Positions 10,818 to 60,158 of a DNA stretch of 64,000 bases are shown piece after piece (positions within the stretch are counted from its first letter, which is position 1; each line of letters starts with the position of its first letter). The DNA is from a virus. Below the pieces are notes generated by a model. That model made no database searches, was not told the origin of the DNA, and saw only the letters and a program-made list of their open reading frames with translations. The stretch covers positions 48,863 to 112,862 of the IMG/VR virus record IMGVR_UViG_3300033149_004566; one strand, 5' to 3'. The translations under genes and the position numbers were made by a program.

Positions 10818-10869
10818 TTAATATTAGAGTTTTACGTTATTTTTAGTAATATACACTTGAGTGATCTCG

Positions 10870-12093: not shown

Positions 12094-12098
12094 TTTAA

Positions 12099-12527: not shown

Positions 12528-12528
12528 C

Positions 12529-13492: not shown

Positions 13493-13511
13493 ATATTAAG
13501 GAGGCTGTTAT

Positions 13512-40125: not shown

Positions 40126-40126
40126 C

Positions 40127-41795: not shown

Positions 41796-42135
41796 TCTTC
41801 AACCTCCATAAAGTCCGCAGTGAATCATTTGACAAGTGCGAAAGCATGTGAATTTTTTTGACGTGGGCTAAAATTAATCTGACTCCGAACACCGAATATA
41901 TTATTTCTCTTAGAATTTCATTGCCGTCAAAGTATTCGCATCTATTGCATTTATCACAGTTGCAGCACAGCACTTCGTACAGCTTTTCAAATAACATGTC
42001 ATTGTTAAAAAATCCCACGCATGATAACGTTTTTTTCATGCCATTATGGCCCAATAGATACGATGAATGTTTCCGTATCAGTATTTCAAGAGCAGCTTTA
42101 TTGTGTATGATGTATTTCAACAATTTAATATTCAT
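41767..42135 (-). CDS. Knuckle-array protein 3
   Basis: 122 residues. Core LCCNCDKCNRCEYFDGN (regular ladder plus an extra Cys). A longer N-terminal region (residues 1-50) than the typical member. Overlaps member 2 by 11 bases. Confidence 0.65.
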   Translation of the reverse strand: MNIKLLKYIIHNKAALEILIRKHSSYLLGHNGMKKTLSCVGFFNNDMLFEKLYEVLCCNCDKCNRCEYFDGNEILREIIYSVFGVRLILAHVKKIHMLSHLSNDSLRTLWRLKNESIVILHR

Positions 42136-42466
42136 GGCAAGCTGTCCCGTATCTTTGTAATAAAACTTCGTTGGATATTCTATGCATCATTTCTGATGCC
42201 GTTAAACCAACATTATTTTTTAGTTCTTCGAGAATATTTCTTGTATAGTATATGTTTTTTACTACATATTCTAATGGAAACATGTTTACGAGAATTCTGC
42301 CCCGTTTACAGATACAAACATTACATAATTTATCACTCAGCTCTTTTGAAAAATATTTTAATTTTCTATAAACACGTTTTATCGGCCACATGTTTACGTG
42401 ATCGTTCAATATGAGATGATATTTTGAACGATTATTGTTATTAAATTCTGTTATTATTGCTTTCAT
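42125..42466 (-). CDS. Knuckle-array protein 2 (degenerate motif)
   Basis: 113 residues from ATG 42466, chosen because GGTGA lies about 10 bases upstream and the MKAII start matches other members; an upstream ATG at 42505 overlaps member 1. The metal site is reduced to LCNVCICKRG (three Cys), so metal binding may be lost or altered. The rest keeps the family length and helical end. Confidence 0.55.
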   Translation of the reverse strand: MKAIITEFNNNNRSKYHLILNDHVNMWPIKRVYRKLKYFSKELSDKLCNVCICKRGRILVNMFPLEYVVKNIYYTRNILEELKNNVGLTASEMMHRISNEVLLQRYGTACHEY

Positions 42467-42491
42467 TTTTTCTTTCACCAAAAAAGTGGAG

Positions 42492-42857
42492 TTATAAAAC
42501 TCCACGCCTGATTAACTCGTTTTTTATGTCGTCTATCGAAAGAAAATCCAACATGTCTTCGACGTCTATGGCATCCAATAGTTCGTCCATTGTAATTCTC
42601 CCGTCCATTAGAGTCGTGACGAAGTGGTGGGCGTCGTATAATACCTTATCACAGTTTTCACACCTGTCGCAATTTTCACAGAAAACGTCCTCGATCGCTC
42701 CGCGTAATACTGACAGCAATTTACTTTCGTCGTCTTCGAGGACATAATATATATCGTGTATGAATTCCTCCATCTCCTCATATAAAGACAGGTTGTAGAT
42801 TTTTTTGAATAATTTTTTATCTTTGCCTACCGTGGTGTTATATATAATCACGTACAC
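42492..42857 (-). CDS. Knuckle-array protein 1
   Basis: 121 residues. First member in transcription order, next to the E1-JAMM-E2 cluster. Regular core FCENCDRCENCDKVLYD. Acidic N-terminal region (YEEMEEFIHDIYYVLEDDESK) and closing MDELLDAIDVEDMLDFLSIDDIKNEL. Its start overlaps the stop of the zinc-ribbon gene upstream by one base. Confidence 0.65.
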   Translation of the reverse strand: MYVIIYNTTVGKDKKLFKKIYNLSLYEEMEEFIHDIYYVLEDDESKLLSVLRGAIEDVFCENCDRCENCDKVLYDAHHFVTTLMDGRITMDELLDAIDVEDMLDFLSIDDIKNELIRRGVL

Positions 42858-43312
42858 TACAGCACCTCAACGTATTCATTGCAATAGAAGCAAAAATACT
42901 TCTTTTCTCTTCTATCATACGCGGATTTTTTTCCGCACACGACACACGACCTTTTATGAAGATCTTCCACGCTATCACATGGTATCGGCTCCAATTTTTC
43001 AAACAAACTGTCGTCGCGTTTTGATATTCCTTGTACTATGTTTACCAACATGTGCCATATTTTTGCTACCTGTATTGGGTCGTATTCATATTTTAATGCG
43101 TCGAGCACGTATGCTTGTGTTTTATTTTTTATAATCACGTGTCCGAGATATTCTGATTTGGCAATATTCTCCGGCGTGTTCCATGGATGAGACCAGAACA
43201 GTATGGCGGATAATCTGACGTCATAATTTCCGCCTTTTTCAACGTCTCTTTTTTCGCAATACCTGAAAATCTTGTCTATGGTGTTGTAATAATACATGCC
43301 TAGGAAATTCAA
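42857..43312 (-). CDS. Hypothetical protein with C-terminal zinc ribbon
   Basis: 151 residues. Residues 118-148 form a C-x2-C...C-x2-C ribbon (CVVCGKKSAYD, FCFYCNEYVEV) resembling the end of the E2-like protein (CVSCGKMFALD, LCMGC). The N-terminal 110 residues are helical and unrecognised. It overlaps the E1 stop by ATGA, so it belongs to cluster B and may be its adaptor or substrate. Confidence 0.6.
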   Translation of the reverse strand: MNFLGMYYYNTIDKIFRYCEKRDVEKGGNYDVRLSAILFWSHPWNTPENIAKSEYLGHVIIKNKTQAYVLDALKYEYDPIQVAKIWHMLVNIVQGISKRDDSLFEKLEPIPCDSVEDLHKRSCVVCGKKSAYDRREKKYFCFYCNEYVEVL

Positions 43313-43983
43313 GACGTGAGCACCATGAAATTTTCTACATCATAATCATATCTGAAATGATTTTTGTCCGCGTTATCACGGATTTCATTAAATATCAGGG
43401 CGCAGGCGGTTGCTGCGACTTGATTCAACGTGAAAATTATGGTTTGCTGTGTACACGGAATGTCAAGTGTTTTTCTATCTAATGTCTCTGCCCAATTATC
43501 GATTTTTTCTGGTGTCACGTAGAACACCGCGCAGAATAGTCCTCCTGTTCTTGCGTCGATTATAGTTCTCTTGTTTTTTAAAAGGACGTCTTTCACTATT
43601 TTTCTAGAGGTCATCGAGTCGACTCCGAGAACGACAAAGTCGCACTCTTTGAACTCATTCACGTGGTTTTTTCCGAACAATTCGTTGTACTTGATGACTT
43701 CAACTCTTCCAGGAGATACTTGCTTGATTCGGTTTTCAAGAGCGTCTACCTTTGGAAGATCTACTTCGTCCCTGAAGAAGAATTGATTCGGAAGGTTGTG
43801 CTCTTCGATCACGTCATCATCAAACAGCACGAATTTTCCGACGCCCATTTTTGCCAGCATCGTGCATATGATGGAGCCGACAGAGCCACATCCTATCATC
43901 ATGACGCTTACATCCTGTATTGTTTCGGGATTAATCCATCCCGATTGCCTCAAAAAGGTATTTATAATGTTCATCTTTATCAA
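43309..43983 (-). CDS. E1-like (ThiF/MoeB-type) activating enzyme, cluster B
   Basis: 224 residues, a minimal adenylating domain that would activate the C-terminus of a ubiquitin-like protein. Seen: MMIGCGSVGS (29-37, nucleotide-binding glycine loop), VLFDDDVIEEHNLPNQFFFR (52-71) with the ribose-binding Asp and the Asn-Arg region, K78VDAL, VVLGVDS (117-123), IIDART, and a candidate catalytic Cys177 in DIPCTQQT before the closing helix. Length is that of a bare ThiF domain. It overlaps the JAMM gene by 4 bases. Confidence 0.88.
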   Translation of the reverse strand: MIKMNIINTFLRQSGWINPETIQDVSVMMIGCGSVGSIICTMLAKMGVGKFVLFDDDVIEEHNLPNQFFFRDEVDLPKVDALENRIKQVSPGRVEVIKYNELFGKNHVNEFKECDFVVLGVDSMTSRKIVKDVLLKNKRTIIDARTGGLFCAVFYVTPEKIDNWAETLDRKTLDIPCTQQTIIFTLNQVAATACALIFNEIRDNADKNHFRYDYDVENFMVLTS

Positions 43984-45125
43984 CTATAATAATTGATTCT
44001 TTTTCTCGATTTTTTGATTATATAACTTCGTTTATTCACGTTGTAATAATTATGATAATCGCTTTTCGCTACGACGACGTCTTTTTTGTCAATCCATTCA
44101 TATATGCCGTCTATTTTGACTAGATATTTGTCATTGCCTTCGATTATTATCTCGCCAGGTTTCATCGCATAGTTGTCATTTTTTACAGCACATTTTTTAA
44201 GAGATCGTGAGCTGTAAGATTTTTTTATCATTGTTTTTACCTTTTCTACGAACTCTATGACTTTCGGATCGTTCATCATGGAATCTGGATCTCCGTAGAA
44301 TTTTATCTCCTTGCATTTTTTGTGAACGTCTCCAGGATAATCTATTTGCACGTGCGACTTCATGGTTGTAAAATTCATGTTTTCAGTGAACGACGTTACT
44401 ACACTGAGTACGGCCGGCCATCCCATTTTTAGGAATAGATCGATCGTTGATTTATCTGTTCCGGATATGAACGTTGACATTGATCCGTGGCTATGCCACG
44501 TGCCTATTATTGACTCCTTTTCAAATGGTTTTGTTGGAGCTTTTATCATTTCGATGTTAGAGATTCCGTAATCCTCCAACGCATCTTTTTCATAGTCAAC
44601 CGAACCGGACGTTACGCTCTGTTTGATTATCACCAACTCAGTGATGAGTATTTTCATCAGTTTGCCATCGTCGTATGTTTTTTTACCTATTATTAGGCCT
44701 CCAATTTCGCTGTTGCCAAATGACAACGTGAGAAGGGCTATTTCAGCTGCAACCTGTTCGCTAAAATATACTTCAAAGTCCTGTTTTATTTCTTTCTTTT
44801 TCGTATATTTCGCGAGCGTTTTTATCTTCTTCTTTTTTAGATCTCTCTCCTGCCATAAAGTATAGATTTTGTAGTTCCCAACCCATTTTATACATAAGTC
44901 GCGAGCGTCGCACAACTTTTTATTGTCAGTATTTTTACACGTCAGACATTTTTCGTCGTAGCTGTAATCATCTAAATGACGATCGATTTCGTTCTCATAT
45001 AGATCTACATCGTAAAGCACGTAATATGGGTCATAATGCTTGTAGTCCTCGTTCTTACAAACTTTACATAGATCGTCATTGCCATTGAGATACCACGCGC
45101 ATTTTTCGCATATTCTTTCATCCAT
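43980..45125 (-). CDS. JAMM/MPN+ isopeptidase-like protein, cluster B
   Basis: 381 residues from ATG 45125 (GGGGTG about 5 bases upstream; it overlaps the E2 stop by 8 bases). N-terminal 80 residues contain zinc pairs (CEKCAW, CKVCKNE, CLTCKN, LCDARDLC). The JAMM core follows: SEIGGLIIGK (Glu140), then GTWHSHGSMSTFISGTD, giving the exact H-x-H-x7-S-x2-D (His211, His213, Ser221, Asp224). The C-terminal 60 residues look like an SH3/KOW-type beta barrel. Such enzymes remove or mature ubiquitin-like proteins. Next to E1 and E2, so the protease of cluster B. Confidence 0.88.
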   Translation of the reverse strand: MDERICEKCAWYLNGNDDLCKVCKNEDYKHYDPYYVLYDVDLYENEIDRHLDDYSYDEKCLTCKNTDNKKLCDARDLCIKWVGNYKIYTLWQERDLKKKKIKTLAKYTKKKEIKQDFEVYFSEQVAAEIALLTLSFGNSEIGGLIIGKKTYDDGKLMKILITELVIIKQSVTSGSVDYEKDALEDYGISNIEMIKAPTKPFEKESIIGTWHSHGSMSTFISGTDKSTIDLFLKMGWPAVLSVVTSFTENMNFTTMKSHVQIDYPGDVHKKCKEIKFYGDPDSMMNDPKVIEFVEKVKTMIKKSYSSRSLKKCAVKNDNYAMKPGEIIIEGNDKYLVKIDGIYEWIDKKDVVVAKSDYHNYYNVNKRSYIIKKSRKRINYYS

Positions 45126-46341
45126 TTCTACACCCCATGCATAGTCCATCTTTATCCAAGGCAAACATTTTTCCGCATGATACACATTCGTCATAGCCGA
45201 CGACTATTTTACAGAAATCCGTTATATATGAATCTTCTGGATTGTATGTCACGCACATTTCTCTAATGAGTAGTACCAGGTTAACTATGTCCAACTGTGC
45301 AGACGCATTTTTTATGGCAACGCTAAAGCTGCCCATGCATATCTTATCTGTACCGATATGTGGCGTGATATACGCATCATACGGGGCAAATGTTGGGCCC
45401 TCGTGTTTTACCAACACGGGATCCATTCCGATAGAGCAAGACCATGTGAACGTTCCGATCGGGATGTATTCCTCGCAATGATCGTTCTCGAAGTATAATT
45501 CTAGATCGTGATACACGACGTTTATTCCGTTGTCCACGACCTCTACGTCGATGTTATCAAGTTTTTTTAATATTTCCAACGTTTTTGGCAAGTTTAATAG
45601 ATTTTTATGACAGTTTTTGATGTTTTGTGATATTTCTCTTTTCTTAACGGCTGATTTGACGTTTGCAAGTAGGTTAAAATTGTACTTGAGAGCAATGTTA
45701 AATAACGGCAAGAATTCCGCAATTTTTTTGTCTGTTAATTTTATCTCGTCTCCATTGACCACCGTTTCAACAAAGTTTTCTAAGACCGTATTTACGTTCG
45801 TTATGGCGTAAAAGTTTTCATCCAGTTTGGACGCTATGATTTCGCCCTTCTCATTTACTATGATGGACTTGGCAATGAACGCGTCGCCGACTCTATCCAT
45901 TAATATGAGGTGCGGGATTTCACCCTTGACGTCCGAGTTTAGATAATCGTCTATTGTCGACACCAACTTACCACCTTCAAAGTTAAATCTGTTAACGACC
46001 TCGTCTGGAAACCACATGTTGTCTTCCGATAAGTTAACGAATCCCGGAATCCTGTCGACGACTATTTGAATTTTATTTAATGAATCAATTGCGTCTTCAT
46101 CCCAATATATGGCTTTTGAAGCCAATACTCTGGTTATATATGCCATGTCTCCAATTCTTAATCTTTTATCGTGTTCAAGAGTCTTATGTTCGCATTCGTT
46201 GTCGATGCCGATTGCACATCTATACGTTTCACAGTCTTCGTGGATCACGTCGCAAGCGGCACAGCACTTGTAACTTTTAATTATCTGGTTCGGACATCCG
46301 CCCGCTTTTATATGCTTTTTGCAATACATCGATGTTATCAT
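45118..46341 (-). CDS. E2-like (UBC-fold) protein with N-terminal zinc module, cluster B
   Basis: 407 residues; GGTGAT precedes the ATG. Order: Cys/His module (residues 6-52), SH3-like segment ending EDNMWFPDEVV (to 115), an unassigned helical middle, then a region that fits a divergent UBC fold (about 265-375). In that region strands lead into GPTFAPYDAYITPHIGTDKICMGSF, where Cys335 is placed like the catalytic Cys of E2 enzymes (pHi...G.iC), followed by a long helix and YNPED, like the NPxD end of E2s. A C-terminal ribbon (CVSCG, CMGC) closes the chain. Standing between ubiquitin-like genes and JAMM/E1 supports the call; similarity is by motif only. Confidence 0.65.
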   Translation of the reverse strand: MITSMYCKKHIKAGGCPNQIIKSYKCCAACDVIHEDCETYRCAIGIDNECEHKTLEHDKRLRIGDMAYITRVLASKAIYWDEDAIDSLNKIQIVVDRIPGFVNLSEDNMWFPDEVVNRFNFEGGKLVSTIDDYLNSDVKGEIPHLILMDRVGDAFIAKSIIVNEKGEIIASKLDENFYAITNVNTVLENFVETVVNGDEIKLTDKKIAEFLPLFNIALKYNFNLLANVKSAVKKREISQNIKNCHKNLLNLPKTLEILKKLDNIDVEVVDNGINVVYHDLELYFENDHCEEYIPIGTFTWSCSIGMDPVLVKHEGPTFAPYDAYITPHIGTDKICMGSFSVAIKNASAQLDIVNLVLLIREMCVTYNPEDSYITDFCKIVVGYDECVSCGKMFALDKDGLCMGCRNG

Positions 46342-46356
46342 ACAAAATCACCACGT

Positions 46357-46638
46357 TTATCGAGGTAAAACTGTCATAAAAATGGGAAATAGGGGATTTT
46401 TATCATTTGTAATTCTTGTAGATTTGAAAGAAATTATTCCTTCCGGAATATCTTTTACGAGCGTGCTCTTGTTAATTATTTTTCCAGATATTACCATGGG
46501 TTGAGTACCATCTTTTACACTGATCTTTTCATCATCTATTAATTGTTCAACGACCTGACTACAGGTCATATCCTCGTCAAATTCGACAGTATAGATGCCA
46601 ATGCCCCAAATGGCGAAGTTAAGTTTTCTTTTTGTCAT
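46357..46638 (-). CDS. Ubiquitin-like beta-grasp protein B1
   Basis: 93 residues; GAGTTGA before the ATG. Layout follows ubiquitin: strand KLNFAIWGIG, strand IYTVEFDEDMT, helix CSQVVEQLIDDEKIS, strand MVISGKII, then STLVKDIPEGIISF, which lines up with ubiquitin's LIFAGKQLEDGRTLSDY segment. The tail runs on to LFPIFMTVLPR with no diglycine, so it would need trimming, an unusual linkage, or works unconjugated. Paralogous to the gene immediately upstream. Confidence 0.78.
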   Translation of the reverse strand: MTKRKLNFAIWGIGIYTVEFDEDMTCSQVVEQLIDDEKISVKDGTQPMVISGKIINKSTLVKDIPEGIISFKSTRITNDKNPLFPIFMTVLPR

Positions 46639-46642: not shown

Positions 46643-46930
46643 TCAACTCTTTTGAGGAAAATTATTATAAAAAATAGGGAAAAGGGCTTTTTTGCCCTGT
46701 TTGATTTCCGGTGGCGTGAAGCTAATCATTCCTTCTGGAATGTCTTTCACGAGAGTGCTCACGTCAATCACTCTGCCAGATACTTTCATTACCTGGGCCC
46801 CGTCTTCTACACGAAGCTTTCCATCGATAATTAATTGTTCAACGACCTGACTGCAGGTCATATCCTCGTCAAATTCGGCAGTGTAAAGGCCAACGCCCCA
46901 AATGCCGAAGTTAAGTTTTCTTTTGGCCAT
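46643..46930 (-). CDS. Ubiquitin-like beta-grasp protein B2
   Basis: 95 residues from ATG 46930, aligned with the paralogue's start and with GAGTTGA at the same distance; TTG 46939 is an alternative. About two thirds identical to B1 over the fold (KRKLNFGIWGVGLYTAEF, DEDMTCSQVVEQLI, STLVKDIPEGMISF). The tail ends LFPIFYNNFPQKS, again without Gly-Gly but with the conserved LFPIF. It appears to be a local duplication. Confidence 0.78.
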   Translation of the reverse strand: MAKRKLNFGIWGVGLYTAEFDEDMTCSQVVEQLIIDGKLRVEDGAQVMKVSGRVIDVSTLVKDIPEGMISFTPPEIKQGKKALFPIFYNNFPQKS

Positions 46931-46935
46931 TTTTT

Positions 46936-47382
46936 TCAACTCATCGGTTTTATCGTTGCACTGAAAGACGATTTTACAGGCACGTCTTCGAGGTGCAATA
47001 AAAATTCTTCATTTTCATTTATTTCGTTATTTCCTTTCGGATAATCTATCATGATGACACTTTCAATGTCATTCGCTTTTTTATAGATTATCCTGTACGA
47101 ATTGTTTAAAATGCATCCTTTTTGGTATGCTAATACGAAGGCTTCATATTTGAGCCTTCCATTACATGATCTACATTGGGTTTTTTCAAGTTCGTTTACC
47201 GAATAATTTAAAAACCCCTGTTTCAACGCCAATAGCATGTTTTGCGTTGAGTTTTCTGTAACGGTTACCGACCTTGTCCTACATCTCGTGCATTTAAAAA
47301 TCATGGACATTATAGATGCATGGAAGTCGGTCTTTAATAGGTTCTCCATATAGGAGCTTATTGGGTCAATGTACTCTGACAT
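46936..47382 (-). CDS. Hypothetical zinc-finger protein upstream of the Ubl genes
   Basis: 148 residues from ATG 47382, overlapping the previous stop by one base; TTG 47400 is an alternative. Two C-x2-C pairs (KCTRCRTRS near 30, QCRSCNGRL near 70) suggest one zinc ribbon; the rest is beta-rich and unrecognised. Its stop overlaps the possible TTG of Ubl B2. It may be part of cluster B. Confidence 0.6.
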   Translation of the reverse strand: MSEYIDPISSYMENLLKTDFHASIMSMIFKCTRCRTRSVTVTENSTQNMLLALKQGFLNYSVNELEKTQCRSCNGRLKYEAFVLAYQKGCILNNSYRIIYKKANDIESVIMIDYPKGNNEINENEEFLLHLEDVPVKSSFSATIKPMS

Positions 47383-48053
47383 TATTTGTTCATCTCGCAA
47401 TACTCATCGCTAATGATGATCGGAGTGATAGTTTCCGGTAAGTGCACGTGACTGCACGCGTGCAGTCTATTGTCTTTTACCACAATGGTATTACAACGTT
47501 GTTTTACGTTGAACACTCTATCCATGATGTATTTTTCACACCTGATCATATTTGCCCAGATTTTTCCGATCTCGAGAATTTTTTGCTTCATGATTGGAAC
47601 GTCTTCGTCTTTTATTTGATTTGCAACGGATAGTCTCATTCCGTGCAGTGTTGGAAAACACCACAAGAAGAATTCAAATGCCAACACTTTCATGCGATCA
47701 AAGTCAACCGGAAAATCATCGATGACAAATTCAACGACGCATACGCTTTCATTGATAAAGAATTTTTCCATTGCTTCTATCAACGTTTTTATCGTTTTTT
47801 CATCGTAAAACTCTTTTGATATTCGGAAGATCATGTTCGACACGTTGAATTTCGGCAGCTCGTCGTAGTAAACGTATCTATCGGCACGTATTTTCAACAT
47901 CATGTTGAATATTTTTTTGTCTTCGTAGATGCTGTCATCGATTATTAAATTGACCACATTATTGCTTGCAATGTTTTTTATATCAGCGACTATGTCTTCC
48001 GAAGGCACGTTCTTTACGTAGATTTTATATTTAATAATAATCACCCATTTCAT
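47382..48053 (-). CDS. Hypothetical protein linked to VWA/MoxR pair
   Basis: 223 residues, from ATG 48053 (a TTG three bases upstream is less likely). Alternating alpha/beta sequence without known motif. A Cys/His pair near the end (LHACSHVHLP) might bind metal. It overlaps the VWA gene by 23 bases. Function unknown; its partners are inferred from this tight coupling. Confidence 0.55.
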   Translation of the reverse strand: MKWVIIIKYKIYVKNVPSEDIVADIKNIASNNVVNLIIDDSIYEDKKIFNMMLKIRADRYVYYDELPKFNVSNMIFRISKEFYDEKTIKTLIEAMEKFFINESVCVVEFVIDDFPVDFDRMKVLAFEFFLWCFPTLHGMRLSVANQIKDEDVPIMKQKILEIGKIWANMIRCEKYIMDRVFNVKQRCNTIVVKDNRLHACSHVHLPETITPIIISDEYCEMNK

Positions 48054-49641
48054 CAATGCTGTTTCCTTCTATAATATTGTTTATTATAGAAGATATTGCG
48101 GTCGGAATGTTGCTGCTATCAACATATAACATTTTCTTACCCCACATTTTTTTTAATGTTGCTTGTGAAGACGTGCAACATATCGGTATGAAATGCACTC
48201 CTTCGCGTTTCACGTCGTAGTACATGTACAACGTGTCTGCTATTGCTTCGTTGCCACTGTAGGCACATCCTCCGTGATGCGGTAACCCATCCGATATGAA
48301 CATGATTATCTTTAATTTTTCCGGTCTGTCCAGAATTTTCTCGAGCTCATATCTTATACTGTATCCGTCGGCGTTTTCATAGTCCGCAATCACGGACTTG
48401 TACATCCTGCTCGTTATCGTATTTTCATTATCATCATCAAAATCTCTAAAGACGTGATGATAACATGTGTATCCACTGGAAGATGCCTCGAAGCTTATGG
48501 CGCGTATGTTCGCGCCCAATTCTATTAATATGTTCTCGATGTTTGACGCTATGTCCCGTAATGTGTCTTCGGTAAATCCCTGTACCGAGCCGGAGCCGTC
48601 CATCATTATTGTTGCCGCCATCGATATCCTTTGTTTTTGCGGTAAATAAAATCTTTTCGGTTCATGTATTGACGTCGGTATGCTGAAGTCGTATATTTCG
48701 CCTTCGTAGTCCAATTTTGCCGTCCTTTTTTCCATCAGTGTTTGTTCCAGCAATTTTAATTCTTCGTCTTTTATTTTATGCATCTTTATTTTATTATTTT
48801 TCAGTGAATGAATCTTGATTTCCTTATATTCATACGGTAGATTAATGGGTTGTGGTGTAAATTTTGTCCTTTTTACCATGGTTTTGAATCTTTCTGTTGT
48901 CTTTTTTATCGTTTCTTTGTATTTTTCGATGAATTCGTTCATGTCTTTTTCCAGTTCTTCCAACGACTTATCAGAATTTAGAATATCTTTCATCATTTTA
49001 CAATGTTCTGTATTCTTGCGCTCTTCAGTTTCCAGCTCTGTTGTGGTAGATATAATTCTACTTCTATTTGGCAGCTCGGCTCTGATTCTGGATCTATCCT
49101 TCATCCACATCTTGAGGATTTCTATTGTTGCCCATAATCCTCTGACAGGATTGGGATCTTCTAACAACGTGTCGAATATTTCTCTTATCCGCGGCATGTC
49201 TATGTCGTCAAAATTTCTATGTCTTGCTCTTTCTAGGTCGATTACGAATAATGAGAGGCTTTTCAACGGCTCTACATTATCGCGATATATTTTCAGATAT
49301 TTTCTTGTTCCGGGCAATAACTCTTGAATTATTGTTTGAACTCTGACGTCTTCCACGACGTTAAAAATGTACCTATATGTTTCGTCTATATTCGCCACTA
49401 TTGTGGGATCTGAGAAAATAACAAACGCAGAGGCATAATGACTAAAGCCTCTCACGTATTCTTCGCTTTCAACGTTTTTTTCGTAAGTCAAAATTACTTT
49501 TTTATCCGTGTCCATTGTCACTATTGGAATTATAGATCTATCGATAGTTTCAAATGTTGTTATTTCAACATTTCCCTTTTCGATGCCGGACAACGTGCTG
49601 AGTATCGTTTTGATCATGTTTTCTCTTTCTTGGTTATTCAT
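48031..49641 (-). CDS. VWA-domain protein, CobT-like partner of MoxR
   Basis: 536 residues. The C-terminal half is a von Willebrand A domain with an intact MIDAS: MDGSGS (Asp348, Ser350, Ser352) and FISDGLPHHGG downstream. The N-terminal part has a FNVVEDVRVQTIIQELLPG segment, as in CobT-type chelatase partners, then a long charged helical linker. With the adjacent AAA+ it forms a MoxR-VWA pair. Such pairs remodel or load metal into client proteins. The ATG overlaps the MoxR stop (ATGA). Confidence 0.85.
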   Translation of the reverse strand: MNNQERENMIKTILSTLSGIEKGNVEITTFETIDRSIIPIVTMDTDKKVILTYEKNVESEEYVRGFSHYASAFVIFSDPTIVANIDETYRYIFNVVEDVRVQTIIQELLPGTRKYLKIYRDNVEPLKSLSLFVIDLERARHRNFDDIDMPRIREIFDTLLEDPNPVRGLWATIEILKMWMKDRSRIRAELPNRSRIISTTTELETEERKNTEHCKMMKDILNSDKSLEELEKDMNEFIEKYKETIKKTTERFKTMVKRTKFTPQPINLPYEYKEIKIHSLKNNKIKMHKIKDEELKLLEQTLMEKRTAKLDYEGEIYDFSIPTSIHEPKRFYLPQKQRISMAATIMMDGSGSVQGFTEDTLRDIASNIENILIELGANIRAISFEASSSGYTCYHHVFRDFDDDNENTITSRMYKSVIADYENADGYSIRYELEKILDRPEKLKIIMFISDGLPHHGGCAYSGNEAIADTLYMYYDVKREGVHFIPICCTSSQATLKKMWGKKMLYVDSSNIPTAISSIINNIIEGNSIDEMGDYY

Positions 49642-50435
49642 AGTTCCACGTCGTGTGCAATTAATAGCTCTTTTATTGCGTCTCTCTGTTTCTTTTCCAC
49701 CTGATCGACAATAGTTTTATTTATGCTCAGCCCGTGTTCATATGCGAAGAGCATTTTGAACAACAGTCTCATGGTGACATACTTGGATGATTTTCTCATG
49801 TTGTAAAATGCATTGATGATTTTGTTGTTCGGAGTAAGATCTTTAGTCTTGCATATTTCATGTACCACGTTTTTTGGTGGAAAGTCCATGATGTAATTAA
49901 AAAATCTCGAGACCGTTGCTTCGTTTTGTTTAAAGGTTCCTCTAAGCCCCGGATTTTCCGTAGACGCCATCAAAACCTTGCATTCGATTGGAATTTGAAT
50001 TCCCAGGGCACCAACATGATATGATTTTCTAAAATCGGTTAGCTGATTTATTGCAGCTATCACGTTCGGCTCTCCGAGATTTCTTTCATCCAATACGATA
50101 ATTACATCTCCCGGTCTTTCATGATCCATGTTTTTTGCCATCCAATTGCCCATTAGTAGAGCATTGGTTATGAATCCCGGCCTAAAGCTTCCATCCGCCA
50201 GAGGCGATCCTTCAAAATGAAAGTTTCTCGTCTCATTATTGATCGGAATCACCATGATCGGAATTTTCCAATCTTTTGCCAATGACATTAATAGCGTGGT
50301 TTTTCCGATTCCTGGCTCTCCGATCAAGTTTATCGGCATGTTTTCTATTATTTCACTAACTTCTTCTCTATACATGTTGTAATTTATAAATCCCGGAATG
50401 TCCGGGATATAAGAGTTTACAAACTCTTTATTCAT
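49638..50435 (-). CDS. MoxR-type AAA+ ATPase
   Basis: 265 residues from ATG 50435 (TTG 50453 possible). Walker A is GEPGIGKT (39-46), Walker B VIIVLDERN (111-119), with the characteristic IPINNETRNFHFEGSPLADG insert, a sensor region VLMASTENPGLRGTF and a candidate arginine finger in EATVSRFFNY. It lies between the VWA gene and the two E1-like genes, so the remodelling pair is transcriptionally tied to both ubiquitin-like clusters. Confidence 0.85.
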   Translation of the reverse strand: MNKEFVNSYIPDIPGFINYNMYREEVSEIIENMPINLIGEPGIGKTTLLMSLAKDWKIPIMVIPINNETRNFHFEGSPLADGSFRPGFITNALLMGNWMAKNMDHERPGDVIIVLDERNLGEPNVIAAINQLTDFRKSYHVGALGIQIPIECKVLMASTENPGLRGTFKQNEATVSRFFNYIMDFPPKNVVHEICKTKDLTPNNKIINAFYNMRKSSKYVTMRLLFKMLFAYEHGLSINKTIVDQVEKKQRDAIKELLIAHDVEL

Positions 50436-50445
50436 TTCTGGTAAT

Positions 50446-51540
50446 TTATTCAATCTGTCTTACCACCAAACTTCTCATTGAATAATATATTGTTGTATAT
50501 TTTTTATATTTTATCATGCCGGCAATTATATTTGCGCCAAAATCTGCCGTTGTCGGCAGTATTACCGGTGTTGTTATGTTGGTACTCACGGGTCGTACCA
50601 ACCTTCCGTCAATCATTTTACAATTTATCCTTTCTTTAAGGGTTTTTGTAGCACCATGCTTGACGGGAATGATGACGCCGTCAAATCCATCCGGTGAGAT
50701 GGTTATGTCAAAGAGGGGCTTTTTATAATATTCGGCAATTTCATCGATATAAAACTTTAGTTCTATATCGTTAACCGTATTTATAATAAAATCTACATCT
50801 TTCATAAGACTTTCATTGAAATCTATCTCATATACATTTTTATCTATAAATCTTCTTCTATACTGTCTCGCTGCGCTGCTTTTCCTTGACATTAGATCGT
50901 CGTATGCAAATCCAGCTGCTATATTTTTATCATTGATATATCCGTCATCTATGATTATTACATGGTCATGATAATTTTGAACGTAAAATCCCACTGAGCC
51001 CAAGCCAATTAACAATATATTGTACGGATTGAAAAAAATCTTTTGTTTTTTATATGGCAACATACATTTTACATGCCTAAGCGTTTTTCCAATACAATGA
51101 TTTAATACTTCTTGCGATACTACCGTTTTCATGGCACACGCATATGAAGCGAATAAATAATATGGGATTATAACTGGAGGACGCGTGGGATTGTACGCGA
51201 AAACGTTAAATCCAGACAAGCTATCAACATCAAATAATGACACTACTTTTCTACACGCTCCACGTGAGTCAAGTACATATACTGTATTTATTATATCGGC
51301 AATTTTATTGCAATTCATGACACATGTCTTGTGGTCATTTTTTTTAATAATTCTATGTTTTATAAGACTTTCCACAGTTGAATAACAAGCGTTATATACC
51401 AATGATGGAAATCCAAGAGTGTGCATATTTTCAAAATCACCATAAGTTCGGTATCCCTTATATCTAATAATTACTTGCTTATTTGCAAGCTTGGATACAT
51501 CATACGCGTTATTTAATATCCTATGATAATCAATATTCAT
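50446..51540 (-). CDS. Degenerate E1-like protein, likely inactive subunit
   Basis: 364 residues. The C-terminal half is an E1/ThiF fold (NILLIGLGSVGFYV, IIIDDGYINDKN, FIINTVNDIELKFYIDE), related to its upstream neighbour through DGFDGVIIPV and TLKER. It lacks the NLNR arginine region (INDKNIAAGF instead) and the catalytic Cys near the end (STNITTPVILPTT where the neighbour has CSSSLCTTH). N-terminal 170 residues unrecognised. Adjacent active and inactive E1 copies recall heterodimeric eukaryotic E1s; that parallel is inference. Confidence 0.75.
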   Translation of the reverse strand: MNIDYHRILNNAYDVSKLANKQVIIRYKGYRTYGDFENMHTLGFPSLVYNACYSTVESLIKHRIIKKNDHKTCVMNCNKIADIINTVYVLDSRGACRKVVSLFDVDSLSGFNVFAYNPTRPPVIIPYYLFASYACAMKTVVSQEVLNHCIGKTLRHVKCMLPYKKQKIFFNPYNILLIGLGSVGFYVQNYHDHVIIIDDGYINDKNIAAGFAYDDLMSRKSSAARQYRRRFIDKNVYEIDFNESLMKDVDFIINTVNDIELKFYIDEIAEYYKKPLFDITISPDGFDGVIIPVKHGATKTLKERINCKMIDGRLVRPVSTNITTPVILPTTADFGANIIAGMIKYKKYTTIYYSMRSLVVRQIE

Positions 51541-52684
51541 CCATATCCACCGAAAATGCTGAAAAATCTCTGAGAGAGAACTTTATACATGATTTTCTTT
51601 CGTTACCACAAGAAAGTAGTTGCGATAACATCAGCTCCGCTACTAACGAATGCGTGGTGCACAGGCTACTGGAACAACTGTAATCGCTCACATTCTTATT
51701 TTCAAAAAAGTCACCTATGTAAGTCATTTTTAACATCTCTTTTAATGTCGGCGTAGTCCCCGGAACGACATGTCTTATAGAACCACCAAATCCGTCAAAC
51801 GAACTTCCCCCGTCTATCAGCGGGATATTATATTGTTGCGAAATTTCATCCATGTATATTCTTGCCTCCTTGTTGTCAACCGCTAAAACGATATATGAAA
51901 TGCTTTTCATGAAATCGCTGTTAAAATTATAGTCAAAAATGTTCATGACCATTGGTATTATTCCGATGTCATTCTTCTCGGTCACGGCTATCGATTTATA
52001 CTTGCCGATGTCTTCAATGTTGAACGATCTGTTTAGATTGACCTCATTGACTATATCGTCGTCAAATACGTACATTCTATCGCGGGAATTATATGTCCTG
52101 CACGTCTTGACGAAATTGGATCCTATTCCACCGGCCCCAATCAACATTATATTTCCCGGATATTTCAATTTTACGGGTTTGCCGTGAAATAGTACTTTTT
52201 TGGTTGGTATGCCTATGACGTAATTTAATATTGTTTGCGTTAACAATATCTCTTCAATATTACCAATTTTGCAGGGCGGAAAACTTATCGTGCTGGTATC
52301 ATCGCCGATTTCTTCATCGGTGTTTATTTCCACCCCATAATACGTGTTTCCATTAGCCACGATAGTATTGAATCTCACAACTGCGGCACTTTTTTCATTT
52401 TTCAATATTTCTACAAAACATCCTCTTTCCGTCTTTTGATCGGGATTGACGTTTATTTTCCACCTGTAATCCGACGTCCGAATTATTCTTTTAGCAAGTC
52501 TCCGCACGCACCCTGGCTTGTACGAATAACCTGGATCGGTAAAAAATTCGCGAAATCCCAGCCTTATTAACAATTCGTACATGTCTATGTTCGCGTCGAA
52601 TCCGAAGCGCAACGTTACGTTGAACAACTTGGACAGGTCATATGTTCCTATGAGTCTCGAAAAACACAGCGGTATGTCATTCAT
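51530..52684 (-). CDS. E1-like activating enzyme, cluster A
   Basis: 384 residues. Residues 175-384 hold a complete adenylation domain: IMLIGAGGIGSNF (179-191), YVFDDDIVNEVNLNRSF (205-221) with Asp and the NLNR arginine, YIVLAVDNKEAR, IPLIDGGSS, and candidate catalytic cysteines in DYSCSSSLCTTH (Cys337 or Cys342). The N-terminal 170 residues are an extra domain of unknown fold, a size and place also used by E2-like or adaptor domains in prokaryotic E1 fusions. It overlaps the JAMM gene by 8 bases. Confidence 0.85.
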   Translation of the reverse strand: MNDIPLCFSRLIGTYDLSKLFNVTLRFGFDANIDMYELLIRLGFREFFTDPGYSYKPGCVRRLAKRIIRTSDYRWKINVNPDQKTERGCFVEILKNEKSAAVVRFNTIVANGNTYYGVEINTDEEIGDDTSTISFPPCKIGNIEEILLTQTILNYVIGIPTKKVLFHGKPVKLKYPGNIMLIGAGGIGSNFVKTCRTYNSRDRMYVFDDDIVNEVNLNRSFNIEDIGKYKSIAVTEKNDIGIIPMVMNIFDYNFNSDFMKSISYIVLAVDNKEARIYMDEISQQYNIPLIDGGSSFDGFGGSIRHVVPGTTPTLKEMLKMTYIGDFFENKNVSDYSCSSSLCTTHSLVAELMLSQLLSCGNERKSCIKFSLRDFSAFSVDMDEY

Positions 52685-53432
52685 ACGCTTTTATCACGTC
52701 CTTTATTATTTCATCGTACATTTTTGACATCATCATTATGTCTTCTTCTTTCATGAATCGGTTTATCTTCTTGATTATTTTTATTTTTTCGTCATATTTT
52801 TCAGTCACCGGCGGCGTCCCGAAATATATGTAAGGTATTCCGCGCACGACCGTCTCTTTACTCTTTCCGATCTTCTTGTTTTTCACGGAATTCATCGTGA
52901 AATATGATGAAGACAACATGGATATTTTTTCGCTGAAATATGTTTGCATTTGCGGACGATTTGCGCCGCCGTTAATCATAAAAAATGGAAACGGATAATT
53001 CTTCCTGTCAAATTTCGGAAGGCTCCTGTCGTCTGTCGTTATAGTTTCCACGGAGTACGCCTCGTCGTTTATTATTTCATAGATATTCAACTCGTTGTTG
53101 TTATATATCATGAATATGGGCGTCGTCGCAGTTAAAGATTCCCATCTTATGAAATTTTTCATATCGGATTTTGACGGCACTGTTTCGCTCGCATGTGAAT
53201 GAGCGTGTCCAACAACATGCAATCCTATCGGTAATCCCAATTCTATATCGTGTCTCCGTTTTGATGACGATATGACGTGATCTACGTCATTTTCAATGTA
53301 TTTCATCTGTACGACGTCATATATTCTTATCGTGTTATTAAAATCCGTTCCTATGAGATAGAATGCGATCTCTTTTCTCGCCAATTTCGATAGAAATCGC
53401 ATTTTTTTCACGATGTAATCCGGAATGATCAC
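52677..53432 (-). CDS. JAMM/MPN+ protein, cluster A
   Basis: 251 residues from GTG 53432, which overlaps the Ubl stop (GTGA); ATG 53456 is an alternative but abuts its AAGGGAG. JAMM features: KEIAFYLIGT (Glu21), VVGHAHSHASETVPSKSD (His78, His80, Ser87, Asp90). The spacing is H-x-H-x6-S-x2-D, one residue shorter than canonical, so activity needs testing. The C-terminal 150 residues are unrecognised. It lies between the cluster A Ubl and E1 genes. Confidence 0.8.
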   Translation of the reverse strand: MIIPDYIVKKMRFLSKLARKEIAFYLIGTDFNNTIRIYDVVQMKYIENDVDHVISSSKRRHDIELGLPIGLHVVGHAHSHASETVPSKSDMKNFIRWESLTATTPIFMIYNNNELNIYEIINDEAYSVETITTDDRSLPKFDRKNYPFPFFMINGGANRPQMQTYFSEKISMLSSSYFTMNSVKNKKIGKSKETVVRGIPYIYFGTPPVTEKYDEKIKIIKKINRFMKEEDIMMMSKMYDEIIKDVIKAYE

Positions 53433-53902
53433 TTTTTCGATTGCCAAAAAGAACATCTCCCTTCTGCAGATAATCCGTCTTTCTTACAGATATGATATAT
53501 TTTTCCAGTGACATCGCTGACACTCGTGACGTGCCTGCAGTTCTTACAGGAAGAGTCCGTGAACACCACTTTGAATTTTTTTATGGCTTCATCGAGAGCG
53601 TCCATCAGGATTTCATCGACGCTCCCGAGAAGATCGGGAGTCAAGATTTTAAAGGAAGAGTTTTCATTTTGAGTTATTTCTCCCACCGTTTTCTTGTCCC
53701 ACTCGTCATCTATGATGTTGTTTTCATTGTCTACTAATTGTACTGTATCTGGTATGGGATAATTTCCCCTAAAAGATGTCAATGCATCGACAATGGCATC
53801 TATCATTGGCGAATTATTGTCCGCCACGATCGTTACACCTTTCCTCGCTCCGACGAGCGAGAATTTTATTTTGACTTTATCTCCTAATTTTAACACCTCC
53901 AA
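53429..53902 (-). CDS. Ubiquitin-like (YukD-type) protein with C-terminal zinc module, cluster A
   Basis: 157 residues. Residues 8-88 follow the beta-grasp order: strand VKIKFSLVGA, strand GVTIVADN, helix MIDAIVDALTSF, strand TVQLVDNENNII, then TVGEITQNENSSFKIL. An acidic helix leads into a zinc module (CKNCRHVTS, YHICKK, RCSFWQ). There is no diglycine, and the domain is followed by more sequence, so it may act as a scaffold or adaptor rather than a modifier. First solid member of cluster A. Confidence 0.6.
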   Translation of the reverse strand: MEVLKLGDKVKIKFSLVGARKGVTIVADNNSPMIDAIVDALTSFRGNYPIPDTVQLVDNENNIIDDEWDKKTVGEITQNENSSFKILTPDLLGSVDEILMDALDEAIKKFKVVFTDSSCKNCRHVTSVSDVTGKIYHICKKDGLSAEGRCSFWQSKK

Positions 53903-54299
53903 TAATAAGGCCGTAAACCATGATCATGGACACGACCCACGCAATGCCGTGCTCTTTCGGCTTGAACTTGGGAAGTTTTACATTTCCCTTAAAACATAAT
54001 CTTTCGCTGCTCCTATACATGTTGAAAGATAAGTTTTTTTTACCGTATTCCACGGCACTCCACACGTACTCCAACATGTTCACGCGCGGGTAGTCCGGCG
54101 TCAACATTATTGGAACGAGCATGTTGTTTCCATTACGATAAAAGTGCACCTTTACCCAATATACCGGAAATTTGGGATAATTATCCCAATAAACCTTCTT
54201 TAAGAATAACTTTTTATCGAAGGTTCTCGGTATTTTTTGTAGGTTTTCTTCCTCTTCACGCTTGCGTAGCTCCCATTCATCATCAAATGGACTGCACAT
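53877..54299 (-). CDS. Possible E2-like protein, cluster A
   Basis: 140 residues from ATG 54299, four bases after the stop of the small gene upstream; GTG 54329 is an alternative. PVYWVKVHFYRNGNNMLVPIML then TPDYPR resembles the central strands and YP turn of UBC folds. SERLCFKGN places Cys102 where E2 enzymes carry the active Cys, and a long hydrophobic helix follows (AWVVSMIMVYGLIIGG), which could instead be a membrane segment. The neighbouring Ubl, JAMM and E1 support the E2 reading, but the call is tentative. Confidence 0.45.
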   Translation of the reverse strand: MCSPFDDEWELRKREEEENLQKIPRTFDKKLFLKKVYWDNYPKFPVYWVKVHFYRNGNNMLVPIMLTPDYPRVNMLEYVWSAVEYGKKNLSFNMYRSSERLCFKGNVKLPKFKPKEHGIAWVVSMIMVYGLIIGGVKIRR

Positions 54300-54303
54300 T
54301 ATC

Positions 54304-54465
54304 TTATGTTTCTTGAGATACTGGAACACCTTTTTTGACTCTCTTTTCTTTTTTTAATATGTTTAATATTGTTGGGTATTCATATTCAATGATGCTTCTT
54401 CTCCGCAATGACGATGCTTTCATTAGCTCTTTTTGATACAATATTTTCAGCTTTCTCAGATTCAA
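54304..54465 (-). CDS. Small basic protein (53 aa)
   Basis: 53 residues from a TTG at 54465 that overlaps the preceding stop (TTGA), ending TAA at 54304-54306 just before the next start. Lys/Arg-rich throughout (NLRKLKILYQKE, SLRRRSII, KKEKRVKK). It exactly fills an otherwise empty 160-base gap in a packed operon, so I take it as a gene. Function unknown. Confidence 0.5.
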   Translation of the reverse strand: MNLRKLKILYQKELMKASSLRRRSIIEYEYPTILNILKKEKRVKKGVPVSQET

Positions 54466-57069: not shown

Positions 57070-57552
57070 CTAAAAAACAATTGCGCTTGGCTTGCTTTTA
57101 TTATAACAATTAATACACATGCGTTGTATCATAACAATTCCAAATGGATTTATCGTGACTATGAATATTTTTGCCCTCATGTTGCAACAAATACCATCTC
57201 GCGTTTCGCTGCACTGAAAAATCGTGGAATTTGATTTATAATATACACGCGCACTGTATCCTTTGCTGACACTCACGTCTTTTATTTTTTTAAACTCAGA
57301 ATTCATTTCGTCAAATGCTTCATTTTGTAAAAATTCCCTAGCAAGTTCATCGGTAAATATTATAATTGCTACCAAGCAATTATAACACGTCCTTTTTATT
57401 TCTTCGCTTTTTAAGTTTACAATTACATACTCGACATGGTGTTGTTTGCAGATGTCACAGGTCTCAAAATTTTCTACAATCCTCGAAAAATGCTTGTAAA
57501 TGGCCATTGTTTTGTCGGAATACAATAGGTTATATTCCTTCGGTTTCATCAT
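57070..57552 (-). CDS. CNMRAK-family protein 7
   Basis: 160 residues from ATG 57552, which aligns with the start of its paralogues; ATG 57579 is an alternative. N-terminal pairs CDICKQHH and CYNC, middle helical region, then CCNMRAKIFIVTI and a final CINCYN. Last of seven tandem paralogues in transcription order. Domain layout: strand pair, zinc ribbon, helical insert, second zinc ribbon containing the signature. Confidence 0.65.
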   Translation of the reverse strand: MMKPKEYNLLYSDKTMAIYKHFSRIVENFETCDICKQHHVEYVIVNLKSEEIKRTCYNCLVAIIIFTDELAREFLQNEAFDEMNSEFKKIKDVSVSKGYSARVYYKSNSTIFQCSETRDGICCNMRAKIFIVTINPFGIVMIQRMCINCYNKSKPSAIVF

Positions 57553-58003
57553 ATATACACGACCTAAAGTGCCTGTCATAACAAATAGGACATAAATAAT
57601 TTCTAGACATCGTGTTGTTATCTATGTTCTCATAGATCACTATTATTTTTGCCCTCATGTTGCACGTTTTATTTTCTTGTATGTGATTACATTGACGCGA
57701 TATCATGTCTGGATCATAAAATACTGTAACTTGAACATCACTACCATATCTAAAAGAATTTATCATTTTCTTGTTAGATATAGTAAACTCTTTAAGAAAA
57801 GCTCCTGAGACGCGAATTCCCATGGTGTATATTCTTGCATAGAAACATATTTCACACATCCGTAATTCTTTTCCACTTTTGTACTTGATTTTTATTCTTG
57901 TATAATTACTGCAAAAATTACACGCTTCATGTCTTTTATCATGGCGAAGAGTGTAAAATATCCTACTTATTTCCACTCTATCGTCCTTGTACAACGTGTT
58001 CAT
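57530..58003 (-). CDS. CNMRAK-family protein 6
   Basis: 157 residues: NTLYKDDRVEISRIFYTL start, CNFCSNY and MCEICF pairs, RQCNHIQENKTCNMRAKIIVIYE signature, closing CPICYDRHF. Full complement of cysteines, so likely both zinc sites are intact. Overlaps member 7 by 23 bases. Confidence 0.65.
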   Translation of the reverse strand: MNTLYKDDRVEISRIFYTLRHDKRHEACNFCSNYTRIKIKYKSGKELRMCEICFYARIYTMGIRVSGAFLKEFTISNKKMINSFRYGSDVQVTVFYDPDMISRQCNHIQENKTCNMRAKIIVIYENIDNNTMSRNYLCPICYDRHFRSCIYDETEGI

Positions 58004-58388
58004 CAGTTATCTCCTCGTAATGTATCATACAGAGATATATCAACGTGAATTTTATTTCGGCATTGTGCGGCTCCACGTCTATCAGTACCACCTTTGCCTT
58101 CATGTTGCAATACATGCCATTCTCACTGGCATTACAATTATATAATTCCAAGTTTGGCATGTAGTTTGCCATATAATAACCACAAGGAGGTATTATTGGT
58201 TTGGCTTGCAATTGTTTTTTTATAAATGACAAGAGCTCGTCTTCGTCTTGATATTCCTCTATGAACGCGTCCACGCTCATCATTGACGTTTTGTCCCCCA
58301 TTTTTATATATATCACGTCAGTTGGACATTTTTTATTAAATGTTTTATATACGACGACATCATCGTCTTCGTATAGTATGTTGATCAC
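57978..58388 (-). CDS. CNMRAK-family protein 5 (lost first ribbon)
   Basis: 136 residues from GTG 58388, chosen because it overlaps the previous stop (GTGA) and aligns with sister starts (INILYEDDDVVVYKTF); ATG 58412 is an alternative. The first ribbon is nearly gone (single KKCPTD), while the second keeps NCNASENGMYCNMKAKVVLI and a final LCMIHY, where His replaces a Cys. Confidence 0.6.
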   Translation of the reverse strand: MINILYEDDDVVVYKTFNKKCPTDVIYIKMGDKTSMMSVDAFIEEYQDEDELLSFIKKQLQAKPIIPPCGYYMANYMPNLELYNCNASENGMYCNMKAKVVLIDVEPHNAEIKFTLIYLCMIHYEEITDEHVVQGR

Positions 58389-58840
58389 GTTAGATCTAAT
58401 ACCACATTCCACCTCATGATTTTTTTAAAGCATTTAATGCATAAGATCTTATCAATGTAAATCGTGGTTTCATTTTTATACTTTTTGTGTCTAGTTATTT
58501 TTGCGACAAAATTACAGTTAATGTTAGAACACTTGATGGCATTCATTTTATCATGATAAAACGTCAAGATTTCGTACGTTTCTCTGTCTTCTATGGAGAT
58601 TGGATCCATATTTTTCGCGTTTATGTATTCTATTTGCTCGTAAAACCATTCGAGCATTTTTACATTTCTTGATTTGATAATAAAATCTTCCAGGCAGTCC
58701 CAACAATAACTTATGCGTTCAAGGCCGCGAAATACCGTAAAACTGGCACTGCATGTCATGCATACATTACACGTTAAATTGACACCATGTGTTTTTTTTA
58801 TGATGTTGTCTTCATCGCGATATACGACATTTAAAATCAT
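58385..58840 (-). CDS. CNMRAK-family protein 4 (variant signature)
   Basis: 151 residues. First ribbon CNVCMTC and YCWDC; signature changed to KCSNINCNFVAKITRH; closing LCIKCFK. The central helix LEWFYEQIEYINA matches other members. ATGA overlaps both neighbours. Confidence 0.65.
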   Translation of the reverse strand: MILNVVYRDEDNIIKKTHGVNLTCNVCMTCSASFTVFRGLERISYCWDCLEDFIIKSRNVKMLEWFYEQIEYINAKNMDPISIEDRETYEILTFYHDKMNAIKCSNINCNFVAKITRHKKYKNETTIYIDKILCIKCFKKIMRWNVVLDLT

Positions 58841-59265
58841 TTGTCCAACCTCGGTTCATATTCTCTTTTGAAATGCATTGGACATATGTAAAACATTTTC
58901 ATATATTTAACGCGTGAGTTAGTAATGCATGCCGTTATTTTCGCTTTCATGTTGCAACCCAACACGGCACACGGCTGTATCTCCATGTCATGATTGTAAA
59001 AAAATATGATATCGCCGTATCTTTCACGTATCGTGCCCAATTTTACGTGATCCAAGCTCGTTTGCTCGTGAAACCACGCGTTTATTTCCGGATAGGTTTC
59101 GTCGGTAAAGCGATCGAAGCAAAATGAACAGAGGTTAGTGGTTTTTCCATCACTATTCATGACGAATGACGCAAATCTCGAGCAAACATCACAAAAGAGG
59201 GTACTTTTATTATTAAAAGTCTTATAAATGGTAGTATCACCAGCAATATATATCGGATTTTTCAT
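58837..59265 (-). CDS. CNMRAK-family protein 3
   Basis: 142 residues: DTTIYKTFNNK start, CDVCSRF and LCSFCFDRF pairs, central WFHEQTSLDHVKLG helix, PCAVLGCNMKAKITACI signature and closing ICPMHFKREYE (Cys-Pro-Met-His as last metal pair). Confidence 0.65.
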   Translation of the reverse strand: MKNPIYIAGDTTIYKTFNNKSTLFCDVCSRFASFVMNSDGKTTNLCSFCFDRFTDETYPEINAWFHEQTSLDHVKLGTIRERYGDIIFFYNHDMEIQPCAVLGCNMKAKITACITNSRVKYMKMFYICPMHFKREYEPRLDK

Positions 59266-59722
59266 CCTTGATCATCTCGTAAAGCATGTTAAAATGCATC
59301 GGACACATGAAGATTGCATCCGTTGGATCAATGCCCGTTTTTGTTCTTTCTACCGACATTATATATATACGGGCTCTCATGTTGCATCCGACAATGAAGC
59401 ACAATTTAATTGGTTCGTCCTTGCAAAGAAAGTGATAATATTTATATGATGTGGCTTTTGACCTGACAATTCCCTTGTATTCGGCGTTTTCTATTTGATT
59501 TTTTACACGCTTCCACATCCACGAACCGATCTCGGGATACAGTTCGTCCAAAAATTCCAATATACAAAGACGACAAAGCAACAACGAACAATCGCGATTT
59601 ACCATGTAATGGGCTATTTGACCGCACGAGATGCAAAAATGTGTCCGTCTTTTCGTGTGATAATAAATATAGTACAACGTAATTTCTCCTTCGTATATCA
59701 TGTTTACGACCAGATCATTCAT
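59237..59722 (-). CDS. CNMRAK-family protein 2
   Basis: 161 residues: CISCGQI and LCRLC pairs, helix DELYPEIGSWMWKRVKNQI, LCFIVGCNMRARIYIM signature and closing CPMHFNMLYE. Closest to member 3 (shared YPEI, CPMHF). Overlaps member 3 by 29 bases. Confidence 0.65.
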   Translation of the reverse strand: MNDLVVNMIYEGEITLYYIYYHTKRRTHFCISCGQIAHYMVNRDCSLLLCRLCILEFLDELYPEIGSWMWKRVKNQIENAEYKGIVRSKATSYKYYHFLCKDEPIKLCFIVGCNMRARIYIMSVERTKTGIDPTDAIFMCPMHFNMLYEMIKDEKSDIYCW

Positions 59723-60158
59723 ACAATCTCGACCTATAAAATCTATTAAAACATTTCGGACAAATGTAGTTCACGATCAATCCATTCTTGTAACCAAACA
59801 ACGTTTTATATTCAATTATTTTGGCCCTAAAGTTGCATTTGGATTTGACCGTGCACATCTGGGACGTCAATTTCTCGTGATAATAAAACTCTATGGTGCC
59901 ACAATTGTGTAGATGAAAACCCATAAATTTTGCGCCAACTATGTCCCCGTATTGAATGTTCATCCATCTCATCGCATCATCATTACTAGCTAATTGTAGT
60001 TCCAGACAATGGCGACACAACTTTATTTTTTTTCCATCGTCGTACACGAACCTTGTCGTTTTAAAATCACATAATTCACAAAAATACGGTTTAAAACAGA
60101 ATTCATTGTAAGCGATGTAAATTTTAATGAGTTTATCGTCGTATACCAGATTGAGCAT
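59715..60158 (-). CDS. CNMRAK-family protein 1
   Basis: 147 residues, first gene of the 23-kb unit after the 60.2-kb terminator; GGAG about 10 bases before the ATG. LNLVYDDKLIKIYIAY start, CELCDF and LCRHCLE pairs, RWMNIQYGDIVGAKFMG helix, MCTVKSKCNFRAKIIEY signature, closing CPKCFNRFY. Confidence 0.65.
   Translation of the reverse strand: MLNLVYDDKLIKIYIAYNEFCFKPYFCELCDFKTTRFVYDDGKKIKLCRHCLELQLASNDDAMRWMNIQYGDIVGAKFMGFHLHNCGTIEFYYHEKLTSQMCTVKSKCNFRAKIIEYKTLFGYKNGLIVNYICPKCFNRFYRSRLYE

Follow-up and report, generated by a model that had tools for sequence, protein, structure and literature searches.

Canonical eukaryotic E1 enzymes consist of an active half and an inactive half: UBA1 has an IAD and an AAD, and in the two-part enzymes NAE1 pairs with UBA3 and SAE1 with SAE2. 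How the active/inactive asymmetry of E1s originated is an open question. In bacteria, the Ubl conjugation defence system Bil (BilABCD) includes BilD, a single fused protein with its inactive half first and a Cys domain of ~80 residues, which forms an IAD+AAD pseudodimer and whose gene has Ubl, E2 and JAB genes as neighbors (PMC11354881). Genes for E1 and JAB proteins are also carried by mobile elements, as in PRTRC (compare type 6d of Iyer et al. 2006, PMC1779556) and CBASS type II (E1-E2/JAB). The locus described here, referred to as cluster A, is a real and unusual variant of the active/pseudo E1 kind, encoded by a virus that has a further Ubl-type gene set (cluster B) in the same gene run.

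The DNA analyzed (the window, 64,000 nucleotides) comprises bases 48863-112862 of a virus record of 112,862 bases. An archaeal tailed virus is its most likely source, because the named phages nearest to its DNA polymerase B are haloarchaeal tailed viruses (27-28%) and the window encodes a terminase, a Mu F-like protein, an anaerobic ribonucleotide reductase, TFIIB- and Elf1-type domains and a protein with a weak small-primase match. A 752-aa ORF on the plus strand (6405-8663) combines the phage Mu F-like domain (E=1.2e-14) with a TFIIB cyclin repeat (E=3.1e-12), that is, a transcription-factor repeat is carried by a virion-type protein.

Cluster A consists of five overlapping ORFs on the minus strand (50446-54329), two of them with ThiF matches and one with a JAMM match, which supports the proposal of a first-pass annotation that a second, distinct Ubl-type module lies in the gene run of cluster B. 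The run extends from 54329 down to 43309 in the order 150-aa protein, 157-aa zinc-tailed protein, JAMM-A, E1-A, E1-A', MoxR-type ATPase, VWA protein, two unknowns, Ubl-B1, Ubl-B2, E2-like protein, JAMM-B and E1-B (Table 1). Its genes overlap or are separated by at most about 15 bases, which suggests that clusters A and B belong to one transcription unit. The ATPase also matches PHROG 249 ("porphyrin biosynthesis," CobS-like; E=8.7e-10). Arrays of Cys-rich paralogues occur on the same strand at both sides of the run: seven in tandem upstream of cluster A (57070-60158; 142-169 aa), and at least 12 diverged copies in tandem directly downstream of E1-B (37753-42857; ~105-130 aa, typically with CxxCxxC).

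Table 1. Features of clusters A and B and of the genes between them (window coordinates).
Feature	Coordinates	Strand	Description
150-aa protein	53877..54329	-	Candidate Ubl precursor, end LIIGG-VKIRR (putative cleavage after GG); tentative assignment
157-aa candidate Ubl	53429..53902	-	Helix and four-Cys zinc-type tail; candidate cleavage after ...FKILTPDLLG
JAMM-A	52677..53456	-	JAMM/Prok-JAB metalloprotease, motif E...HSH-x6-S-x2-D
E1-A	51530..52684	-	~170-aa extension and ThiF domain; complete catalytic residues
E1-A'	50446..51540	-	Pseudo-E1 paralogue, same extension as E1-A
MoxR-like AAA+ ATPase	49638..50453	-	Overlaps E1-A'; AAA_5 E=2.6e-8
VWA (CobT-like) protein	48031..49641	-	Overlaps ATPase; CobT_C E=0.0016, under cut-off
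Ubl-B1	46643..46939	-	65% identical to Ubl-B2
Ubl-B2	46357..46638	-	65% identical to Ubl-B1
E2-like protein, 407 aa	45118..46341	-	TPHIGTDKICMG; sole E2 candidate in the run
JAMM-B	43980..45194	-	PADLOC JAB E=3.7e-9
E1-B	43309..43983	-	ThiF E=3.7e-32; viral E1 group without Arg finger

Both E1-type proteins of cluster A belong to the Pfam ThiF family (PF00899; cut-off 28.1 bits). E1-A matches it over residues 178-363 (E=6.7e-20; 71.7 bits) and, in an alignment with 52 other E1-type domains, has all catalytic positions, namely both loop glycines, D208, R219, K230, D270 and C337, the equivalence of positions with MoeB Gly41, Arg73, Lys86 and Asp130 being taken from PMC12355090. E1-A' (E=1.3e-8; 34.7 bits) is an intact ORF of 364 codons overlapping both neighboring genes; it keeps the Gly loop, the Asp and the Lys and has lost Arg219 (to Ala), the Mg-Asp270 (to Asn) and Cys337 (to Thr; numbering of E1-A). 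Comparison with PDB sequences places E1-A closest to the adenylation domains of UBA1, UBA3, and UBA2. The two proteins share 27-33% identity, and in each of them an N-terminal extension of ~170 residues precedes the ThiF domain; global alignment of the extensions gives a score that none of 1000 shuffles reached. Thus, the long extension of E1-A and the degenerate second E1 listed in the first-pass annotation are both confirmed, and the extension is a feature of the pair.

As MoeB, ThiF, and UBA5 are homodimers (PMC12355090) and E1-A has each residue needed, E1-A could function as a homodimer, and E1-A', which keeps the Gly loop and Lys of the ATP site, could then be an independent pseudo-enzyme, such as a regulator or a decoy binding a host Ubl or E1. 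This alternative is considered unlikely: adjoining, overlapping genes of the same full-length architecture favor a complex, and active/pseudo pairs are known in BilD and in fused proteins of Woesearchaeota.

The relationships of the E1s were examined in an IQ-TREE tree of 55 E1-type domains. E1-A and E1-A' are sisters (support 99/97) and fall outside the viral B-type group (92/84), which contains E1-B, as well as outside the active (95/89) and pseudo (100/100) groups of Woesearchaeota; cluster A had indeed been described as not made of close copies of cluster B. The branch of E1-A' is long (1.62), so its exact place in the tree could be pulled. Given the sister placement and the extensions that align above every shuffle, E1-A and E1-A' are best read as a pair that a single local duplication produced and of which one member later decayed. 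The Mg-Asp position is Asn in 10 of 11 Woesearchaeota pseudo-domains, as it is in E1-A'. Orthology of E1-A' with these pseudo-halves, as the shared ND signature might indicate, is disfavored by the tree and by the AU test (p 0.022 with E1-A' forced among them; p 0.0127 with E1-A forced among the Woesearchaeota active halves), the hypotheses having been prompted by the signature and run after the tree was seen, on a tree with long branches. The shared Asn would therefore be convergent.

Scans of viral contigs with the single proteins E1-A, JAMM-A and TerL gave no match, and alignment scans for relatives of the E1-A type gave either none or only five generic viral E1s (three PRTRC-like by inspection). 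The corresponding scan of genome contigs yielded a single match, a Woesearchaeota operon. No other carrier of the ~170-residue extension was found in the sequences searched; among 371 genomes of the Woesearchaeota phylum no match spans it (the matches begin at model position 158 or beyond, except one that begins at 116); where the matched ORFs are long, they probably represent the tandem E1 type. As regards selection on E1-A', the lack of relatives of the pair would count against a two-subunit E1.

JAMM-A matches Pfam Prok-JAB (PF14464) below the cut-off (E=1.9e-4; 21.7 bits against 25 bits). An independent JAMM profile, built from 24 viral and archaeal JAMMs plus JAMM-B and excluding JAMM-A, was run against all window ORFs: JAMM-B ranked first (5.4e-35), JAMM-A second (E=7.8e-8) and a non-JAMM third (0.41). 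JAMM-A carries HxH, Ser and Asp in the order of the broad JAMM superfamily, and its HSH-x6-S-x2-D motif is one residue short, as first noted, most profile members having x7. With one residue missing from the metal-site loop, it might be a weak enzyme.

The two small proteins at the start of cluster A are more difficult to assign. The 150-aa protein has no Pfam, PHROG, PADLOC, NCBIfam or PDB sequence match worth naming, and its C-terminus (IAWVVSMIMVYGLIIGGVKIRR) has Gly-Gly followed by five residues. A Gly-Gly within the last 10 residues is found in 4 of the 157 window ORFs of at least 90 aa, so this end alone is weak evidence; several Woesearchaeota Ubl-position proteins have similar ends (NPAVGGK, GQGGQ, RNKGGKY, KRDGGGVY). 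The protein had first been taken for a possible E2, which would make cluster A a complete second set, and by eye it does show E2-like letters (LTPDYPR and, ~30 residues on, ERLCFKG). This is regarded as quite improbable. No E2 profile match was obtained, the hhalign comparison with two archaeal E2-like profiles gave E values at the level of unrelated controls (0.69 and 0.2, with a sensitivity limited by the single-sequence query), the single-sequence AlphaFold model has three strands, a helix and two strands at pLDDT 38, and the C-terminal Gly-Gly also argues against it. Because of the missing E2 signal, the Gly-Gly end and the like ends in Woesearchaeota, a role as Ubl precursor is preferred to that of an E2, at roughly an even chance.

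The 157-aa protein had been described as a zinc-tailed beta-grasp protein. The tail (CxxC...C...C, zinc-type) is present in the sequence; a beta-grasp-like fold is suggested by inspection and by a single-sequence AlphaFold model (pLDDT 45) with the order beta-beta-alpha-beta-beta-helix-beta, then a helix and beta hairpins. No database sequence matches this protein, and no fold match to it is significant. Structure prediction was thus carried through for both small proteins with models of low confidence, and in the fold comparison no E2 or ubiquitin chain was significant for either. A Ubl profile made from crAss-like phages and cluster B picks up neither of them.

In cluster B, the E2-like protein is the best of 14 window proteins against the same two archaeal E2-like profiles (hhalign, E=0.008 and 0.025). 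Because it is the only E2-like gene of the run, the earlier notion of two complete sets is not supported. A 117-aa protein (37048-37401, minus strand) resembles by eye its Cys-rich N-terminus (CKxHIK..GC.N.I.KSY.CC..C) and is a possible adaptor paralogue. Ubl-B1 and Ubl-B2 align with Ubl-position proteins of crAss-like phages, a comparison whose seeds are partly circular. Relatives of E1-B with a JAMM cassette occur in crAss-like Steigviridae, in Flavobacterium phage FpV4 and in archaeal-type virus contigs, and several of these cassettes also have E2-like and Ubl-position genes. Viral B-type E1s (E1-B and those of L064-L092) lack the arginine of NxxRQ, which is replaced by Asn, Gly or Tyr in each of the 18 relatives tabulated, the other catalytic residues being retained almost throughout. 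Among 25 viral loci with E1-B relatives (one being the contig of L064 again), many have a JAMM match beside the E1 and none has a second E1 in the flanking sequence covered, which was at most 10 kb per side. Locus L064, from another archaeal-type virus, has six E2-like paralogues in tandem adjoining the JAMM and E1 genes (9070-14879, minus strand), three with an HPH...PCWG-type motif and others lacking its Cys; these are possibly active/inactive E2 pairs.

Judged from sequence, cluster A would, with moderate confidence, represent a module for Ubl activation and deconjugation with a two-subunit E1 made of an active and a pseudo-E1 subunit. E1-A would adenylate the C-terminal glycine of the Ubl and take it as a thioester on Cys337, and E1-A', the duplicate devoid of catalysis, would be its structural partner in an E1 dimer, in the way that NAE1 serves UBA3, SAE1 serves SAE2 and the N-terminal half of BilD serves the C-terminal one. 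JAMM-A would trim the Ubl precursor or precursors (the GG-VKIRR tail of the 150-aa protein and/or the zinc-tailed protein after LLG) and may also free targets of the tag. From E1-A, the Ubl would most likely be handed to the one E2 that cluster B provides, or be transferred with no dedicated E2. A broader proposal, put forward tentatively as somewhat short of an even chance, is that the virus built its own two-subunit E1 independently of eukaryotes, Bil and DPANN archaea, by duplicating a gene of which one copy then decayed, and that a single shared E2 serves both its Ubl modules. Sulfur-carrier or cofactor chemistry of the ThiS/MoaD kind, instead of protein tagging, is highly improbable: the ThiF family includes ThiF and MoeB, and the best NCBIfam models for E1-A are of the MoeB/ThiF type, but these score far under their cut-offs, the genes scanned include no recognizable rhodanese, ThiG or MoaE-type gene, and a JAMM and a pseudo-E1 are present in the run.

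Candidate purposes of cluster A may include counter-defence, control of host proteins and tagging of virion parts. The first-pass annotation proposed that the two sets might modify targets sequentially or regulate each other, perhaps to counter a Ubl-type defence of the host. Both clusters might strip or jam a Ubl-type antiviral system of the host, the E1s and Ubls being competitors and the JAMMs deconjugases; bacterial Ubl tagging interferes with phage assembly, according to what PMC12660748 cites of Hor et al. 2024, the same idea has been put forward for the numerous deSAMPylase-like JAMMs of Borg elements, and Bil-like operons exist in Woesearchaeota. B-type cassettes, however, adjoin replication genes in crAss-like phages, which fits a core role in infection equally well, and anti-defence is judged possible but on the doubtful side. 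It is a statement of purpose and is compatible with a two-subunit E1. The Bil-like sets of Woesearchaeota and the bipartite E1 of Bil are relevant to such a defence role but do not demonstrate it.

Among cellular organisms, Woesearchaeota (DPANN) have operons of similar gene content. Of 103 genomes from a single order, about a dozen encode a tandem E1 with a length of about 430-535 aa, pseudo-domain N-terminal and active domain C-terminal, which is the layout of BilD (PMC11354881); no description of this layout in Woesearchaeota was found in a literature search of limited breadth. Several of these operons are Bil-like, with Ubl-, E2- and JAMM-type genes (L096, L127-L138), and their Ubl-position proteins often end in GG plus a short tail. 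Operon L096 has in addition a VWA gene, and at 2188-3969 on its plus strand the gene for an E2-like protein precedes a second copy in which the candidate active-site Cys is changed to Asp (SICYDGG to SIDYDGG), possibly a UEV-like pseudo-E2. Unlike the E1s of cluster A, those of Woesearchaeota are fused and form a separate tree group.

E1-A scores 27.6 bits against PRTRC_ThiF (cut-off 144.75), it shows no CBASS-type E1-E2 fusion (PADLOC E1-E2 models match the E1 part only, residues 169-290), and no CD-NTase was recognized among the genes scanned. Viral B-type cassettes have an E1 and a JAMM in common with cluster A, and E2-like and Ubl-position genes often accompany these, but their E1 is single, short and without the Arg finger. 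Ubl gene sets are a recurrent content of archaeal and bacterial tailed viruses and do not belong solely to host defence.

With Bil, cluster A has in common a Ubl (here a candidate), a JAB/JAMM and inactive and active adenylation domains; in contrast to BilD, these are two separate ORFs with the active one first, each with the unique ~170-aa extension and without the ~80-residue insert between Mg-Asp and Cys, they are virus-encoded, and no E2 of their own was found. NAE1-UBA3, SAE1-SAE2 and UBA1 likewise join an active and an inactive adenylation unit, whereas in cluster A no Cys half-domains or UFD are recognized and the duplication appears local to the lineage. Active/pseudo E1s were already known in eukaryotes and Bil, and the version of cluster A, whose decayed copy lost the Asp that unrelated pseudo-E1s also lack, appears to have arisen separately; if this is true, the sister pair with its common extension would provide a fresh, testable case of how the asymmetry of E1s arises.
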